From: Halothiobacillus sp.
GTDB lineage: Bacteria; Pseudomonadota; Gammaproteobacteria; Halothiobacillales; Halothiobacillaceae
Assembly (NCBI GenBank): GCA_016278265.1
Contig: JADQCE010000001.1
Location: forward strand, 744,001 to 808,000
Length of the DNA stretch: 64,000 nt
Direction of reading: 5' to 3'
Positions 777 through 14,403 of this stretch are shown piece by piece. The notes beneath the pieces are model-generated. The model was not told the origin of the DNA and searched no databases. It saw nothing but the letters and a program-made list of their open reading frames with translations. Every line of letters starts with the position of its first letter. Position 1 is the first letter of the stretch. The position numbers and the translations under genes are program-made.

Positions 777-1097
777 ATGATTAAAACAGCACGCGTTGTT
801 GCCGCAGCAGCGGGCTTTGCCCTGATCGGTTCGGTTGGCATGGCCAACGCCGCCAGCGAAGCAGACTACGAGAAGGCCAAGCAAGAAGCGCAGGCCGCCA
901 TTGACGCCGTTCAGGAGAAAGGTTACCTACCGTGGAGCCCGCACCCGAAGAGCGACCTGTTCGGCGATGCCGACAAGCTGGCCAAGAAGGGCGATTACGA
1001 GAAGGCCATCGAGAAGGCCGAGTACATCGAGGAGCTGCAGGCACTGGCCGAGAAGCAGTGGGCCGAGCAGGACGCCGGTCCGTACAAGGCCTGGTAA
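777..1097 (+). CDS. small exported protein resembling SoxXA-binding protein
   Basis: A 106-residue protein with a signal peptide (cut probably after MANA or MANAA near residue 26). The mature part of ~80 residues is Ala/Lys/Glu-rich and helical. It has a KGYLPWSPHPKSD stretch and then a DKLAKKGDYEKAIEKAEYIE helix. This helix-turn-helix layout, with an aromatic patch followed by D-x-x-K-A-x-x-x-G-D-Y-x-K-A, is like the small periplasmic SoxXA-binding proteins (SoxK/SAXB) that assist the SoxXA thiosulfate-oxidation cytochrome. That family assignment is by eye. There are no Sox genes beside it. The start is fixed by an excellent ribosome site (AGGAGG at 762-767). A terminator follows, so it is a monocistronic, probably well-expressed gene. 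Confidence 0.6.
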   Translation: MIKTARVVAAAAGFALIGSVGMANAASEADYEKAKQEAQAAIDAVQEKGYLPWSPHPKSDLFGDADKLAKKGDYEKAIEKAEYIEELQALAEKQWAEQDAGPYKAW

Positions 1098-2844: not shown

Positions 2845-5718
2845 TCAGCTCGGAGAGTTGCGCTCCATGGCTTGCAGCTGTTCCTCGATCCACTGGCGCG
2901 CCGGGACGGGGCGGGCAAAGCAGAAACCCTGGAACCGGGTGCAGTCGTTTGCCTTGAGGTAGTGGAACTGCGCGCAGGTCTCCACGCCCTCGGCGACCAC
3001 CTCGATGCCCAGGCGTGAAGCCATGGCGAGAATCGCCTCGACCATGGCGGTGTCGCCAGGGCTGCCGGGGACGTCATCGACGAAGCTCTTGTCGAGCTTG
3101 ATCTCGTTCAGCGGCAGGCGCTTGAGGTAGGCGAACGAGGAATAGCCGGTGCCGAAGTCGTCGATCGAGAAGGTCAGGCCCAGAGCGGCCAAAGCGCGCA
3201 TGCGTTCGATGGCATCGGAGGCGTGGCTGACCAGCATGTTCTCGGTGATCTCGATCATCAGGTGCGCCGGGTCGATGCCGGTCTGCTCGATGGTTTGCCT
3301 CACGCGGTCGACGAAGTCGGGCGTGCGGAACTGGCGCGGACTGACGTTCACCGAGATGTTGAGATGTTTCTGCCCAGGCGGCGTGGATTGCTCAAGACCA
3401 TGCAGCAGTTGGCAGGCCTCGCGCAGCACCCATTCGCCGATGGCAATGATCTGACCGGATTCCTCGGCGACCGAAATGAATTCCGCCGGCGAGACCAGCC
3501 CGCGCACCGGATGACGCCAGCGCAGCAGGATCTCGGCCCCGACTACCACCTCGTCGCGATCGACCTGCGATTGCAGGTGCAATTCGAACTCGCCGCGTTC
3601 CAGTGCCTGCTTGAGCTCCTGTTCGAGCCGGTAGCGGCGGGTCACTGACTCGACCATGCCGGACTCGAAGTTCACCAGGTTGTTACGCCCCGCTCGCTTG
3701 GCCTGATACATCGCGACATCCGCCTCGCGTATCAGCTCCTCCGCGTTGTCGACCTTGCCGGCGAACAGGGTCAGGCCCACGCTGGCGGTTGCCAGGTGGC
3801 GAAAGTCCTGGAACTCGAACGGTTGTTCCATGGCATGGCGCAACTTGTCGGCCAGCGCCGTCGCGCTTTGGCGCGCCCCATGGATGTCGTGCGCCATCTC
3901 AGGCACCAGCACCAGGAATTCGTCGCCACCCAGTCGGGCCACCGTGTCGGTATCGCGGACCAGGCCGGATAACCGCCGCGCCACCTCTATCAAGACTTGG
4001 TCACCAAGCGAATGACCGTACAGATCGTTGATTTGCTTGAATTCGTCCAGGTCGACGAAGAATAGCGCCCCGACGCCACCATGGCGTTTTCTTTGCCGGA
4101 TGGCCTGATCGACGCGATCGAGTAACAACGCGCGGTTCGGCAGGTCGGTCAGCCCGTCGTGATAGGCCAGCCGTTCGAGCTGGGCGGCGGTTTCCTTGTC
4201 TGCGGTGACATCGACGCATTGCCCCATGACGCCCATGAATGCGCCCCGGCTGCTGAAGCGGGGCGTGCCCTTGGCGAGCAACCAGCGGTATTCGCCGCTG
4301 TGATGGCGCAATCGATATTCACGCGTAAACGAGACCCGGCGCTCGTAGGCCGAGACGATCACCTGTTGCAGTGCGGGCAGATCCTCGGGATGGACGGCCT
4401 GCTGCCAATCGTCGTTCAATGCCTGGTTGGGGGGCAGGCCGGTGAAGGTCAGCCAGGGACGATTGACGTAGTCGCGCTTGCCGTCGAGATCGGCCGTCCA
4501 GATCAGCGCCTGGCCATTGTCGGCCAGCGTGCGGAAGTGCTGTTCGCTCTCGGCAAGCGCTTCGCGCAGGCGATATTCCTGGCTCATGTCGTGGAAGACG
4601 AGGACCACGCCCACTAGCGAGCCGTCGTCTTGCTGGATCGGTGCGGCGCTGTCGGCGATATGGTGGCGATTGCCTTGGCGATCGGTGAGCACGGTGTGGT
4701 TCGCCAGCCCCACCAGGGTGCCTTCGGCGAGTACCTGGCGGATCGGGATGGCCACCGGACGATCGTCATTGGCATGGCAAATCACGAAGACCGCCTCGAT
4801 GGGCTTGCCGATCGCCTCCTCGCGCGACCAGCCGGTCAGCCGTTCGGCCACCGGGTTCATCAGCGTGATCATGCCGTCAAGATCGGTGGCGATCAGGCCA
4901 TCGCCGATCGAGTCGAGGGTGACGGCGAGACGTTTTTCGCTTTGCAGCAGTTGATCGCGTGCCTCGCCGATCGCACGTGCCATGGCGTTAAAGCCCTGCG
5001 CCACGGCAGCGATTTCGCTGCAGCCGCGCTCGGACAGACGGACGTCGAGGTTGCCCTGACGCAGGCGCATTGCCGCATCACGCAGGCGTCCCAGCGGGCG
5101 AGTGATCTGGCTGTTGAGCACCCAGGCGGTCAGCAGGATGATCAGTAGCATCATGCCAGCCTCGGGGAGGCGCGCGAGGATGGCCTCGTTGCGGATCCGG
5201 GCGAGCGAGGCAGTCAGGTCCATGCGCACGCAGACCACGCCCCGGCTTTCCGAGCGCGGGCGGCCGGAAAGGACGGGCAATTCGAAGGATTGCAACGCCC
5301 GAAGGGTCTGTTCCCCGTCGAGCTGGTTCAGGTTGGGTAAGCGCTGATCCTGTTGATCGGTAAAGGCGGTGAGGTCGAGCTCGGCAAACAGCTCATCGAC
5401 CGGTTTGCCTTGCCAGGTTTGGTAGGGCGATACCAAAACCTCGCGATCGGGTCCGATCGCGATCAGCATGTCGACGCGCGGATCGGTCAAGATGCTGCTG
5501 ACGCGAGCCTTGAGTAGGCCGGTGCCCTCCAGCCCGCCTTGCTCGATGGTGCGTGCGATCTCGGTGGTGTAGCCGAGCAGCCGCTGGCTGGAGTCGGCCA
5601 TGAAGATGGCCGAGCGATTGTGGATGCCGTTGATCAGCGAGACGGCCGTGATCAGGAGGAACAGCAAGCTCAGCCCCAGCGGGACCATCAGTCGCAGTGA
5701 CAGCCGCGGCAACGTCAT
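2845..5718 (-). CDS. membrane sensor with HAMP, two PAS, GGDEF and EAL domains
   Basis: A 957-residue bifunctional c-di-GMP enzyme. TM1 is at ~11-30, a periplasmic loop at 31-185, TM2 at ~186-202, HAMP at 203-256, PAS at 265-385 and 395-510, GGDEF at 517-680 and EAL at 690-945. The cyclase active site is intact (LGGDEF at 596-601) with an RDTD inhibitory I-site five residues before it. The phosphodiesterase motif reads EIL (729-731) instead of EAL. ITEN, DDFGTGYSS (853-861), KLDKSFV and EGVET are all present, so hydrolysis is plausible. The ATG overlaps the stop of the upstream binding-protein gene by 4 nt (ATGA), so the two are translationally coupled. The binding protein probably supplies the signal to the periplasmic loop. 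Confidence 0.92.
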   Translation of the reverse strand: MTLPRLSLRLMVPLGLSLLFLLITAVSLINGIHNRSAIFMADSSQRLLGYTTEIARTIEQGGLEGTGLLKARVSSILTDPRVDMLIAIGPDREVLVSPYQTWQGKPVDELFAELDLTAFTDQQDQRLPNLNQLDGEQTLRALQSFELPVLSGRPRSESRGVVCVRMDLTASLARIRNEAILARLPEAGMMLLIILLTAWVLNSQITRPLGRLRDAAMRLRQGNLDVRLSERGCSEIAAVAQGFNAMARAIGEARDQLLQSEKRLAVTLDSIGDGLIATDLDGMITLMNPVAERLTGWSREEAIGKPIEAVFVICHANDDRPVAIPIRQVLAEGTLVGLANHTVLTDRQGNRHHIADSAAPIQQDDGSLVGVVLVFHDMSQEYRLREALAESEQHFRTLADNGQALIWTADLDGKRDYVNRPWLTFTGLPPNQALNDDWQQAVHPEDLPALQQVIVSAYERRVSFTREYRLRHHSGEYRWLLAKGTPRFSSRGAFMGVMGQCVDVTADKETAAQLERLAYHDGLTDLPNRALLLDRVDQAIRQRKRHGGVGALFFVDLDEFKQINDLYGHSLGDQVLIEVARRLSGLVRDTDTVARLGGDEFLVLVPEMAHDIHGARQSATALADKLRHAMEQPFEFQDFRHLATASVGLTLFAGKVDNAEELIREADVAMYQAKRAGRNNLVNFESGMVESVTRRYRLEQELKQALERGEFELHLQSQVDRDEVVVGAEILLRWRHPVRGLVSPAEFISVAEESGQIIAIGEWVLREACQLLHGLEQSTPPGQKHLNISVNVSPRQFRTPDFVDRVRQTIEQTGIDPAHLMIEITENMLVSHASDAIERMRALAALGLTFSIDDFGTGYSSFAYLKRLPLNEIKLDKSFVDDVPGSPGDTAMVEAILAMASRLGIEVVAEGVETCAQFHYLKANDCTRFQGFCFARPVPARQWIEEQLQAMERNSPS

Positions 5719-6674
5719 GGCCCCTCCGGCAGGAAGCGCGCCGTGGCGAGATTCGACAAGTCGGGAACCTGCTCGATCAGCGCGTTGGATTGCATGATCT
5801 CGGCGACGGTTCTCGCGGCCTCGCGCAATGGCGTGGCCGGGGGCTCGAGCCAGGCGTGATTGTCATTCAGGCTCAGCAGGGCGATCCCCCGGAAGGCTTC
5901 GGCCGTCTGTTCAACCGTCAGCCCCAAGCGCGGCGCCATGAGGCGGTGGGCGCGCCCCGGGCTTGATTTCACCACGGCGAGGGCCTCGAAATAGGCCGAC
6001 AGCAGGTCGGCGAGTGCCTTTGGCTGGCGGTTGACGGCATGGTCGCTGACCGCCAGCACGTCGACGATCAGGCCCGGGAAGGCACTGCTGTCGTGAAGGC
6101 GGGTGGCACCGAGGGCGGCCAGTCGTGAGGCGAACGGCTCGTAACTGATCACCGCGTCGATGGCGCCTTCCTGGTAGGCGGACAGCTGGCCACTGCCAAT
6201 GACGGGTACGCGGATCACGTCGTCGGGGGAGAGACCGGCCGCCTCGAGCGACTTTCTCAGCATCAGGGCACCGGCGGCGGTCTCTTCGACGCCGATACGT
6301 CGGCCGGCCAGGTCCTCGAGTCGATCGATACCGGGACGCGCCATGACAACGTCGGCGCCCTGGGAGGTGTCGAACACGAGGGCGATGCTTACCGGGATGC
6401 CGCCGGCACGGGCGAGGATGAATTCGTCGAGGGTGAGCGTGGCGACCTCGACTTCACCGGAGGCCAGCTGCATCAGGCTGTTGGTATTGGAGGGGGACTC
6501 GATCAGGCGGATGCGGTCGGGGGGCAGCAGGTCGAGTTCGCGGGCGAGGAACAACGGCTCGTAACCGACCCAGGTGATGCCGGAGACCCGCAGTAGTGGT
6601 TCTCGGCCTTCACAACCCAGTAGGGCGGCGAGCGGGGCGAGTGCGCCGGTGACGAGAAACTGCCTGCGTTCCAT
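5715..6674 (-). CDS. ABC-type substrate-binding lipoprotein (NMT1/ThiY-like), probable sensor partner
   Basis: A 319-residue periplasmic binding protein with a twin-strand Venus-flytrap fold. The signal peptide ends in a lipobox (ALLGC, Cys ~21), so it is anchored as a lipoprotein. Characteristic segments are WVGYEPLFLARELDLL, the SNTNSLMQLASGEVEVA hinge and EGAIDAVISYEPFASRL, typical of the nitrate/sulfonate/thiamine-precursor (NMT1, SsuA, ThiY) group. No ABC permease or ATPase gene accompanies it. Instead it overlaps the GGDEF/EAL gene by 4 nt. I infer that it senses a small ligand for that enzyme rather than importing it. The ligand cannot be read from the sequence. Confidence 0.85.
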   Translation of the reverse strand: MERRQFLVTGALAPLAALLGCEGREPLLRVSGITWVGYEPLFLARELDLLPPDRIRLIESPSNTNSLMQLASGEVEVATLTLDEFILARAGGIPVSIALVFDTSQGADVVMARPGIDRLEDLAGRRIGVEETAAGALMLRKSLEAAGLSPDDVIRVPVIGSGQLSAYQEGAIDAVISYEPFASRLAALGATRLHDSSAFPGLIVDVLAVSDHAVNRQPKALADLLSAYFEALAVVKSSPGRAHRLMAPRLGLTVEQTAEAFRGIALLSLNDNHAWLEPPATPLREAARTVAEIMQSNALIEQVPDLSNLATARFLPEGP

Positions 6675-11396: not shown

Positions 11397-11430
11397 CCCC
11401 GGCAGGATGACCTGCCGGGGTTTCTCGTTT
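11397..11430 (+). terminator. intrinsic terminator
   Basis: CCCCGGCAGG (11397-11406) pairs perfectly with CCTGCCGGGG (11411-11420) around an ATGA loop, followed by TTTCTCGTTT. It ends the transcript of the small exported protein gene. Confidence 0.85.
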
Positions 11431-11583
11431 CTCAGTGAGTCGACCTTGAACATGAGTCCGGTGATATCCGGGCAAATTGGCGACCGGCTCGCCGTCAGCC
11501 GTCGAGATGGATTATTGTTGCCGTTGCGCGCACGGTCTCGAGACCGCGGCGTGCAGAGCAGGCAAACCAACCACGGAGAGCGC

Positions 11584-13251
11584 ATGTCCGCCGCACCGAT
11601 CGCCAACGAACCATCGGCAACGAGCGACCACGCCGGCAGCGCCCAAGGGGCCCGAACCCGCCGGGCCAACGAATCCGCCCTGCTGGACATCCGCGATCTC
11701 AATGTCAGCGTCGGGCAGGCGTCGATCGTGCGAGGCGTCTCTCTGCATCTCGACCGCGGCGAGCGGCTGGCCCTGGTGGGTGAGTCGGGTTCGGGTAAAA
11801 CCGTCACCGCGCTCTCGATACTGCGGCTTTTCGATGCCGCCGATGCCTCCATGCAGGGAGAGATCCGCTTCGAGGACGAGGATGTCCTCACTATGAGCAT
11901 GCCGCAGGTGCGGCGCCTGCGCGGTGGTCGAGTCGGGATGATCTTCCAGGAGCCGATGACCGCGTTGAACCCGCTCAAGACGATCGGCGCGCAGATCGCC
12001 GAGGTGTTGGTGCGCCACCTGGGGCTGGGCGGGCAGGCGTTGCGTCGACGGGTGCGCGAACTGCTCGATCAGGTGCGCTTGCCTGAACCGGAGCGGGTGA
12101 TGCGGGCCTTGCCGCACCAGCTCTCCGGCGGGCAGCGCCAACGCGCCATGATTGCCATGGCCATCGCCTGTAACCCCAGTCTCGTGATTGCCGACGAGCC
12201 GACCACGGCACTGGATGCCGGCTTGCGCAAGACCATCATGGACCTGCTGGTCGAGTTGCAGCAGCGACTGGGCATGAGCTTGTTGCTCATTACCCACGAC
12301 CTGCCGGTGGTGCGACGTTATGCCGATCGGGTAATGGTGATGCGAGATGGGCGCATCGTCGAGGCGGGCCCCACCGATGCGATCTTTAGCCGCCCGAAGG
12401 ACAGTTATACCCAGACCTTGCTGGAGGCACGCCAGGTCGCGCCCATGATCGGCCCGATCGAGGAGGGCGCCGCCGAGCGACTGCGCTGTGCAGGGTTGAG
12501 CGTGACGGTCGGCAAGCGGCGCTGGTTCGGGCCCGATACGCGTAGCGAGATACTCAAGGGGATCGATCTTGCCCTGCATGCCGGTCAGACGCTGGGCGTG
12601 GTGGGCGAGTCCGGTTCCGGCAAGACGACGTTGGCGTTGTCACTGCTGCAATTGATGGACGGGGCCGAGGGGGCCGTGTGGCTCGCCGGCCGCCGGGTGG
12701 ACGGCTTGCGTGAAAAGCAGTTTCGTCCGTTTCGACGTGATCTGCAGGTGGTGTTCCAGGATCCTTACGGCGCGCTATCGCCCCGCATGAACATCGCCCA
12801 GATCGTCGGCGAGGGGCTGGATGTCCACGAAGCCAGTCTCACGAGCGGCGAGCGGCATCGGCGCATCGAACGGGTGCTCGAGGAAGTGGGTCTCGATCCA
12901 GCGGTGATGTCGCGTTACCCGCACGAGTTTTCCGGTGGACAACGGCAGCGGATTGCCATTGCCCGGGCCCTGATTCTCAAGCCCAAGGTGCTGATCCTGG
13001 ACGAGCCGACCAGCGCGCTCGATGCGGCTGTGCAGTTGCAGGTACTGAGCCTGCTGCGGGATTTGCAGGCCGAGCACGATCTCACCTACTTGTTGATCAC
13101 CCACGATCTCGCCGTGGTGCGTGCGTTGGCCCACCGGGTGATCGTGATGCTCGAGGGGGAGGTGATCGAGTCTGGCCCGACCGGGGAGTTGCTTGATTCA
13201 CCCGGCCATGAGTACACCCGTCAGCTGATCGACAGTGCGCTGATGGCCTAA
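11584..13251 (+). CDS. double-ATPase ABC protein, oligopeptide/microcin C type (YejF-like)
   Basis: Both ATPase halves of an oligopeptide-type importer are fused in one 555-residue cytoplasmic protein. Domain 1 (about 35-285) has GESGSGKT, LSGGQRQRAMIAMAI and VIADEPTTALD. Domain 2 (about 305-550) has GESGSGKTTLALSLL, FSGGQRQRIAIARAL and LILDEPTSALDAA. Both have full Walker A, signature and Walker B motifs, so both should hydrolyse ATP. This is the YejF/DppD-DppF architecture. No permease or binding-protein gene is adjacent, so the membrane partner must be elsewhere. The ATG at 11584 has ACGGAG 8 nt before it. The gene overlaps its convergent neighbour at the stop codons. Confidence 0.9.
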   Translation: MSAAPIANEPSATSDHAGSAQGARTRRANESALLDIRDLNVSVGQASIVRGVSLHLDRGERLALVGESGSGKTVTALSILRLFDAADASMQGEIRFEDEDVLTMSMPQVRRLRGGRVGMIFQEPMTALNPLKTIGAQIAEVLVRHLGLGGQALRRRVRELLDQVRLPEPERVMRALPHQLSGGQRQRAMIAMAIACNPSLVIADEPTTALDAGLRKTIMDLLVELQQRLGMSLLLITHDLPVVRRYADRVMVMRDGRIVEAGPTDAIFSRPKDSYTQTLLEARQVAPMIGPIEEGAAERLRCAGLSVTVGKRRWFGPDTRSEILKGIDLALHAGQTLGVVGESGSGKTTLALSLLQLMDGAEGAVWLAGRRVDGLREKQFRPFRRDLQVVFQDPYGALSPRMNIAQIVGEGLDVHEASLTSGERHRRIERVLEEVGLDPAVMSRYPHEFSGGQRQRIAIARALILKPKVLILDEPTSALDAAVQLQVLSLLRDLQAEHDLTYLLITHDLAVVRALAHRVIVMLEGEVIESGPTGELLDSPGHEYTRQLIDSALMA

Positions 13252-14403
13252 ATAGGCGAGTCCGGCCTGGATAAGGCGGATCGGGATGCCGTTGGTTCGA
13301 TGATCTCGATCACGTCATCCACCCCATTGATGGCGATGCGGCCGCGGCCGGCTGCCTTGGCGGCATAGAGCGCCTGGTCGGCCCGACGTAACAGCTCTTC
13401 GCCGTTGTCATCCCCGCGCGGTGGCTCGAGGCTGGCAACCCCGATACTGGTGCGGGTGTCGCAGGGGGCGAAATCGGTGCGTTCCACGGCATCGAGAACC
13501 CGCCTGGCTACATCGGCGGCCGCTCGACGGTCCGCCAACGGCAGGATGATGGCAGATTCATCACCCCCGTAGCGGGCCATGAAATCAGTGGGCCGCGAGA
13601 CCGAGCGCAGGATGTCGGCGAAGGTGCGAATGACCCGGTCACCGACCTGGTGGCCGAATTGATCGTTGCAGGGTTTGAATCGATCGAGATCGAGGATTAC
13701 CAGCGACAGCGGGCTCTCGTGGTCACGGGTCAGGAGCAGATCTTCGTCCAGCCGCGCGTCGAAGGCCGATCGATTCCCGAGTCGCGAGAGGTTGTCGGTG
13801 TCGGCCCGGACCCGCAGTTCCCCGGCGAGGGCTTCCAGCTCGTGGTTGCGGTGCTCAAGATAAGCCAGGATCACCTCGCGCTCTTCTTCTTCGCGGTGCA
13901 ATTGTTGTTCGCGCTGCCCCAGTTCTATCAGCCGCATCACCTGGCGAGCGAGGGCGTCCAGCGTTTCGCGTTGCGCATCGTCGAGCGTGCGTGGCTGATG
14001 GTCGACCACGCATAGCGTGCCGAGCGCCAGCCCGTCACTGGTAACCAGGGGGGGCGCCATAATAGAAGATGGTGGCTGGGTCGGCATCGACGACATTGGG
14101 GTTGTCGGCGAAGCGAGGATCGTGACGGGCGTCGGGGACGTAGGTGGCGCGGTCCGGCGTGAGAATCGCATGGGCACACAAGGTCTGGCCACGCTCGGTC
14201 TCCCCGAACGTGGCGCCATCCACCGACTTGAACCATTCCCGGTCCGTGTCGATCAGCCCAATCAACGCCAGCGGAGTGCCGGCGATGTAACGAGCAATAC
14301 GCGTCAGATCATCGAACGACGCCTCGGAAGACGTGTCGAGGATATTGAGACGCCGCAGGGCCTCGACTCGTTCGCTTTCGTTGACCGGTACTGCTGGCTG
14401 CAT
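13248..14403 (-). pseudogene. GAF-GGDEF diguanylate cyclase gene, frameshifted in a 7-G tract
   Basis: Two frames together encode one GAF-GGDEF protein. The first starts MQPAVPVNESERVEALRRL at 14403 and contains most of the GAF domain (TPLALIGLIDTDREWFKS, GQTLCAHAIL, YYGAP), then runs into a stop at 14035. The second resumes exactly there with PLVTSDGLALGTLCVVD, a coiled segment and the GGDEF domain. The switch point is seven G at 14048-14054 (C on the coding strand). Deleting one base restores a 384-codon reading frame. The GGDEF domain has DLDRFKPCNDQFGHQVGD and an RPTD I-site, but the signature reads GGDES. Possible causes are a real mutation, phase variation or an assembly error; the sequence cannot tell which. 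Confidence 0.85.

Follow-up and report, generated by a model that had tools for sequence, protein, structure and literature searches.

NMT1-type lipoproteins as candidate co-receptors of membrane sensors, with a c-di-GMP gene pair from Halothiobacillus as an example

Introduction

The gene pair examined here occupies positions 2845-6674 of a 64,000-nucleotide stretch of DNA from a Halothiobacillus species (GenBank assembly GCA_016278265.1, contig JADQCE010000001.1, positions 744,001 to 808,000), and this whole stretch is called the window below. The pair codes for a solute-binding lipoprotein of the NMT1 type and a membrane sensor with the domains of cyclic di-GMP (c-di-GMP) metabolism. A similar layout is known from NspS-MbaA of Vibrio cholerae and Sinorhizobium meliloti, in which the gene for a substrate-binding protein (SBP) overlaps a downstream gene for a HAMP-GGDEF-EAL sensor with two transmembrane (TM) helices, by 3 bp in S. 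meliloti and by 16 bp in V. cholerae (PMC9993111). However, NspS is a relative of PotD/PotF rather than of NMT1. That study found NspS-MbaA in less than 1.4% of 16,076 proteobacterial genomes, whereas a more sensitive search places the NMT1 branch described below in 47 of 397 sampled Pseudomonadota genomes, that of the window included. Partners of the NMT1 family include kinases, unlike those of NspS.

LuxP-LuxQ and TorT-TorS are sensor kinases activated by SBPs. They resemble the NMT1 family both in using a periplasmic binding protein as the ligand reader of a sensor and in having kinase partners, although we take the LuxP and TorT binding-protein families to be unrelated to that of the window lipoprotein. 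The NMT1 family also differs from these two systems by serving both kinases and c-di-GMP enzymes. Importers of the TauA, SsuA and guanidine types share the NMT1 fold, but those coupled to ATP-binding cassette (ABC) transporters adjoin permease and ATPase genes, which the window protein does not. In Pseudomonas aeruginosa RmcA, a periplasmic-binding-protein fold likewise controls a c-di-GMP enzyme, but the SBP_bac_3 domain lies inside the sensor (PMC8846402), whereas the window carries a separate lipoprotein and a sensor with a Cache-like outer domain. According to the same review, of the 27 families of the periplasmic-binding-protein clan only SBP_bac_3 had been investigated in connection with c-di-GMP networks. 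Another paper puts the number of SBP families with receptor-binding members at 13 or more (PMC9602780).

Our analysis indicates, with a probability of roughly 80%, that the window lipoprotein is a dedicated co-receptor of the sensor and not part of an importer. The finding is better put as a family of NMT1-type lipoproteins that probably serve membrane sensors as co-receptors, with the window pair as one of its c-di-GMP members. The family is widespread and represents a variant of the known SBP-sensor layout. It is apparently undescribed, as word searches of open-licence papers found no description of a family of NMT1-type sensor partners.

Results and discussion

A lipoprotein gene that overlaps a sensor gene

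The pair consists of two open reading frames (ORFs) on the minus strand, both with ATG start codons. The lipoprotein gene (5715-6674, 319 amino acids) lies directly upstream of the sensor gene (2845-5718, 957 amino acids), and the two genes share the 4-nucleotide stop/start sequence ATGA at 5715-5718. Neither the ORF list nor Pfam places an ABC permease or ATPase gene beside the pair. The initial annotation had proposed an NMT1 lipoprotein with a lipobox, a 4-nucleotide overlap, a two-TM sensor with HAMP-PAS-PAS-GGDEF-EAL architecture and no adjacent permease or ATPase gene, and the ORFs, the sequence and Pfam agree with this layout. Its description of the pair as fused by overlap is apt only for the genes, because the products are two separate proteins and there is no fusion protein.

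The pairing is conserved in Pseudomonadota

For the phylum sample, 397 Pseudomonadota genomes were drawn evenly and searched with a match cut-off of E 1e-40. Matches were found in 84 genomes and number 105, including 2 in the genome that carries the window. Profile scoring of the neighbours of the other 103 matches gave 52 sensor-coupled, 46 ABC-coupled and 5 with neither, and every one of the 40 top-scoring matches is sensor-coupled. When these 103 proteins are placed in a tree with the window protein, one side of a single branch holds 52 sensor-coupled members, including the window protein, and no ABC-coupled member. The other side holds 46 ABC-coupled proteins, 5 with neither neighbour and 1 with a sensor gene upstream (L259). 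The neighbour label changes only twice on this tree, compared with shuffled means of 35.2 for the sensor group and 34.2 for the ABC group, each taken separately. Thus, the concern raised in the initial annotation that homologues might lie mostly beside ABC genes does not apply to the sensor branch, and the recurrence of the pair as neighbours without ABC permeases, for which it had suggested a genome search, extends to all 52 branch members in the 397 genomes.

With the window included, the sensor branch is represented in 47 of the 397 genomes; outside the genome of the window, the pairing is found at 51 loci in 46 of 396 genomes. The overlap is 4 nucleotides in 25 of 47 phylum-sample pairs. 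A pattern test assigns lipoprotein signals to 35 of 51 sensor-branch members versus 4 of 46 ABC-coupled proteins, and a looser pattern yields 41 of 52 versus 8 of 46. A small NMT1-type group that falls with the ABC-coupled proteins in the tree (L254, L260 and L247) has neither ABC nor sensor neighbours, and its relative L259 is the locus with a GGDEF gene upstream.

Named genomes were sampled with a ten-sequence profile, which recovered at least 492 relatives, and the best 80 were kept. All but one of these 80 have a following ORF, and the overlap is exactly 4 nucleotides in 49 of the 79 pairs. Partner domains were assigned with Pfam for 76 proteins, made up of 75 full-length partners and that of the window. 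Four loci whose partner is cut at a contig end (L118, L133, L143 and L155) were excluded together with L098, and the partners at L106 and L119 were kept although truncated or mis-framed. The output domains are GGDEF (42), EAL (37), HisKA (29) and HATPase_c (28), accompanied by HAMP (52) and phosphonate-binding-type domains (20), and no permease or ABC ATPase family is present among the 25 of 30 families listed.

About a third of the homologues are therefore paired with histidine kinases, and the binding protein appears to be a general sensor partner. The proposal in the initial annotation that the pair converts a small-molecule signal into a change in c-di-GMP retains its mechanism, which we infer from the conserved pairing, but c-di-GMP is not the sole output of the family. 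The surroundings of the kinase-type pairs (111 flanking ORFs at 29 loci) chiefly code for more signalling proteins (Response_reg 15, HD_5 4), and the 25 families listed, of 115, point to no common metabolic role.

Within the genus, 8 of 10 further genomes have the pair, and thus its arrangement is not due to chance. The genome of the window carries a second, paralogous pair (C6:819732), whose binding protein is 40% identical to that of the window and whose genes likewise overlap by 4 nucleotides. The outer part of this second GGDEF sensor begins with a substrate-binding-like domain of the phosphonate-binding type, termed type B below. The second pair, too, is retained in 8 of the 10 further genomes, and the exceptions for both pairs are one genome that is 64% complete and one with a weak match only. 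Locus L059 gave no local match in this check. The gene ahead of the second pair (L004, 4778-9346) presumably codes for a periplasmic rhodanese-like protein, judging by its sequence, and the pair is followed by a gene for a 1211-residue PAS protein with EAL-like C-terminal motifs.

Among the matches listed, the nearest named relatives of the window lipoprotein are from Guyparkeria species, with 82% and 73% identity, and on this ground the window probably comes from a Guyparkeria. The same type of pair is also found on an alphaproteobacterial plasmid of Niveispirillum cyanobacteriorum (L290, 4890-8291), where the genes are 9 nucleotides apart and are annotated as coding for an 'ABC transporter substrate-binding protein' and an 'EAL domain-containing protein', with a globin-coupled sensor upstream.

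The binding protein follows the outer domain of its partner

The outer domains of the partners are of two types. Type A spans about 150 residues, as in the window, and type B spans about 290 residues and is of the phosphonate-binding type. Each type occurs with c-di-GMP outputs and with kinase outputs. On a tree of binding proteins with 89 labelled rows, 2 changes suffice to explain the outer-domain type, whereas the output class takes 12; the shuffled means are 23.3 and 27.3, respectively. Thinning the tree to 76 rows gave the same result. The labels derive from our own hydropathy, motif and profile rules, rows without a clear label were excluded, and one tree omits L039, L040, L042, L043 and L044, five loci that duplicate named ones. 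The difference between 2 and 12 changes suggests that the binding protein and the outer domain act as one module on which the outputs are swapped. This pattern fits a co-receptor that would dock on the outer domain in the manner of NspS-MbaA.

Architecture of the two proteins and a proposed mechanism

The lipoprotein (5715-6674, minus strand) matches the NMT1/THI5-like family (PF09084, 3e-17), with a score of 63.7 bits against a gathering cut-off of 20.5. NMT1 and NMT1_2 are otherwise joined only by a Phosphonate-bd match below threshold, and Pfam detects no PotD-family match. Its structure model has a predicted local distance difference test (pLDDT) score of 93.4. The closest solved structure is TauA (6ssy; Z 33.3, root-mean-square deviation (rmsd) 2.0 over 285 residues, 20% identity), and the enzymes Thi5 and DszB are also among the structural matches. 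The signal peptide MERRQFLVTGALAPLAALLGC (6612-6674, minus strand) was recognized from the sequence and by pattern tests. It carries a twin-arginine-like RRQFL motif followed by the lipobox LLGC ending at Cys21, which is almost invariant among 62 homologues. The initial annotation had named the lipobox only. The twin-arginine-like motif occurs in 46 of 80 close relatives but in only 4 of 51 proteins of the phylum sample, and is therefore a trait confined to the near relatives of the window protein.

The sensor (2845-5718, minus strand) has two TM helices, at about residues 8-30 and 182-200, on either side of the outer domain of about 150 residues. This periplasmic domain (about residues 34-180; 5179-5619) is modelled with a single-Cache/extracytoplasmic-PAS fold (pLDDT 90.1), and the assignment rests on matches to the WalK sensor domain (4ywz; Z 13.2, rmsd 3.2 over 133) and to CitA (1p0z; Z 11.7, rmsd 3.8 over 124). 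Pfam finds no Cache match in the sensor by sequence. The cytoplasmic part consists, in order, of HAMP (residues 201-250; 4969-5118; PF00672, 5.4e-13), a first PAS domain (residues 263-378; 4585-4932; PF00989, 2.4e-26), a second PAS domain (residues 417-497; 4228-4470; PF08447, 1.1e-22), GGDEF (residues 518-680; 3679-4167; PF00990, 5.9e-45) and EAL (residues 700-937; 2908-3621; PF00563, 2.6e-73). A motif scan located an intact GGDEF motif, RDTDTVARLGGDEF, at residue 588 with an RxxD inhibitory site 5 residues ahead of it, and all of the EAL motifs ExLxR, NVS, EITE, DDFGTG, KxDxSF, AEGVE and QGF. The catalytic motifs of both domains are thus intact, and enzyme activity is predicted from them.

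These features are consistent with the following mechanism. The lipoprotein would be exported, here probably by the twin-arginine translocation (Tat) route, and anchored by its lipid at a membrane. There it would close on a small extracytoplasmic ligand and would then dock on the sensor made from the overlapping gene, at its Cache-like outer domain. The signal would pass through the second TM helix and HAMP, the PAS domains in the cytoplasm providing further inputs, and would shift the balance between c-di-GMP synthesis by GGDEF and its breakdown by EAL. The lipoprotein most likely reports an outside chemical to the cell rather than feeding on it.

Conserved residues and candidate ligands

Eight residues (T81, D83, E84, S104, G106, E130, P180 and D205) never vary in 62 close homologues, and D108 is kept in 61 of them. 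T81, D83 and E84 belong to a TLDE motif (residues 81-84; 6423-6434, minus strand), and S104, G106 and D108 to a D-x-S-x-G-x-D motif (residues 102-108; 6351-6371, minus strand), whose S104 and D108 are present in all 52 sensor-branch members and in all 46 ABC-coupled proteins. Across the wider sensor branch, conservation of D83 (35 of 52), E84 (41 of 52) and E179 (32 of 52) is incomplete, and the pocket may therefore vary within the branch.

Judging from the fold family, the conserved residues probably line the cleft. Their acidic character fits poorly with an anionic ligand, for example nitrate or a sulfonate, and makes a nitrogen compound, cationic or neutral, the likelier candidate. The sulfonate, nitrate-like anion and thiamine precursor offered as possible ligands in the initial annotation are not supported. 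The lipoprotein scores far below the curated NCBIfam cut-offs for the aliphatic sulfonate protein SsuA (TIGR01728; 101.4 bits versus 163.5) and the taurine-binding protein TauA (TIGR01729; 44.4 versus 304.25), and alignments show that TauA and SsuA are without most of its conserved motif residues. The cut-off for the 'urea' ABC binding protein is also missed (TIGR03427; 75.4 versus 333.9).

The D-x-S-x-G-x-D motif and D205 are common to ABC-coupled proteins, some of them at guanidine-I riboswitch loci. Such riboswitches occur at 5 of 11 ABC-coupled outgroup loci. Within the phylum sample, they are present at 2 of the 20 ABC-coupled loci scanned (of 46) and at none of the 19 sensor-branch loci scanned (of 51). 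With the last two counts, guanidine remains a weak lead as the ligand. Two loci (L070 and L074) each carry two guanidine-I riboswitches beside ABC-coupled NMT1 importers, and a third (L075), from the same genus as the window, has the guanidine-I type beside such an importer, plus a guanidine-II switch.

A broader proposal is that NMT1-fold lipoproteins are a portable reading head for c-di-GMP enzymes and kinases in Pseudomonadota and some Desulfobacterota, and that all of them read one conserved ligand, which would most likely be a guanidine- or urea-like small cationic or neutral nitrogen compound. We consider this proposal doubtful.

Evidence against the co-receptor model and alternative explanations

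At the level of sequence and predicted structure, the co-receptor model appears well supported by the gene order, the overlap, the intact motifs, the predicted folds, the conserved pairing, the absence of ABC partners and the way the binding protein follows the outer domain. Several observations somewhat dampen our confidence. The branch split in the phylum tree is weakly supported, with a value of 77 in the SH-like approximate likelihood ratio test (SH-aLRT). The search profile (A4) grew from sensor-coupled seeds, so that the ranking of matches is not independent of the hypothesis; this dependence does not extend to the tree or to the scoring of neighbours. In addition, 13 of the 52 sensor-labelled loci match neither outer-domain profile. 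Tight gene linkage would favour the same pattern of outer-domain and output changes. The lipoprotein gene abuts the end of the sensor gene that codes for the outer domain, and recombination at the far end could keep the two together without a functional reason. Three loci with a sensor gene upstream (L212-L214) offered no way round this caveat, as a sensor-type outer domain is also encoded directly downstream at each. Finally, one study reports that P. aeruginosa SBPs encoded beside AgtS and AruS do not interact with the sensor domains of these kinases (PMC11113362).

That report also lends some weight to an improbable alternative, in which the two genes share no more than their expression: the sensor would detect a ligand of its own through the Cache-like or PAS domains, and the lipoprotein would do some other periplasmic work, for instance sequester that compound or deliver it. 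Neighbouring genes for an SBP and a kinase need not be linked in function (PMC11113362), the outer domain resembles direct ligand binders such as CitA, and the sensor has two cytoplasmic PAS domains. However, a pairing that persists over 51 loci in 46 of 396 genomes and through changes of output domain exceeds what co-expression needs.

We regard it as slightly less probable still that the lipoprotein is a scavenger feeding an ABC importer encoded elsewhere and that its place beside a sensor is historical. Binding proteins can serve distant permeases, the lipoprotein is folded like those of importers, and 15 BPD-type permease matches occur in this genome. Only 2 NMT1-type-like permeases were found there, however, and each has an adjacent binding protein of its own (L005, 2070-3110; L156, 7145-8578), while no sensor-branch member of the phylum sample lies beside ABC genes. 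The genome-wide permease search and the neighbour tallies thus rule out the importer as the leading explanation.

Least probable of all, the lipoprotein might be a constitutive structural subunit that fixes the state of the sensor after losing ligand binding, a notion open to a fold that also includes the enzymes Thi5 and DszB and is not always an importer's, but the most conserved residues (the eight invariant positions and D108) are partly common to ABC-coupled importers, as expected for a kept pocket.

Neighbouring genes

The upstream neighbour of the pair is an NlpC/P60 gene (6808-7689, minus strand; Pfam), which is preceded by a larger gene that we read as rlmKL. Past the sensor gene lies a convergent plus-strand gene (835-2784), presumably xseA. 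A 106-residue protein with a signal peptide and no Pfam match is encoded near the 5' end of this converging gene (777-1097, plus strand). The closest ABC gene in the first 14 kb of the window codes for a double ATPase (11407-13251, plus strand) and is 4.7 kb and several genes away from the pair. A further GGDEF-type protein, as read from the sequence (13248-14219, minus strand), lies within 8 kb of the pair, like the double ATPase, and is not part of it. Scans of the window returned no RNA families or tRNAs, and a scan against a virus collection returned no relative.

Implications

To our knowledge, most c-di-GMP enzymes are without a known signal. Because the binding protein is separate and can be purified, the signal of a whole sensor family becomes directly testable. 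If all members read one conserved ligand, these bacteria would share a signal that is so far unnamed. Annotation as an ABC transporter component, as in N. cyanobacteriorum, hides a signalling system that is found in 47 of 397 Pseudomonadota genomes.

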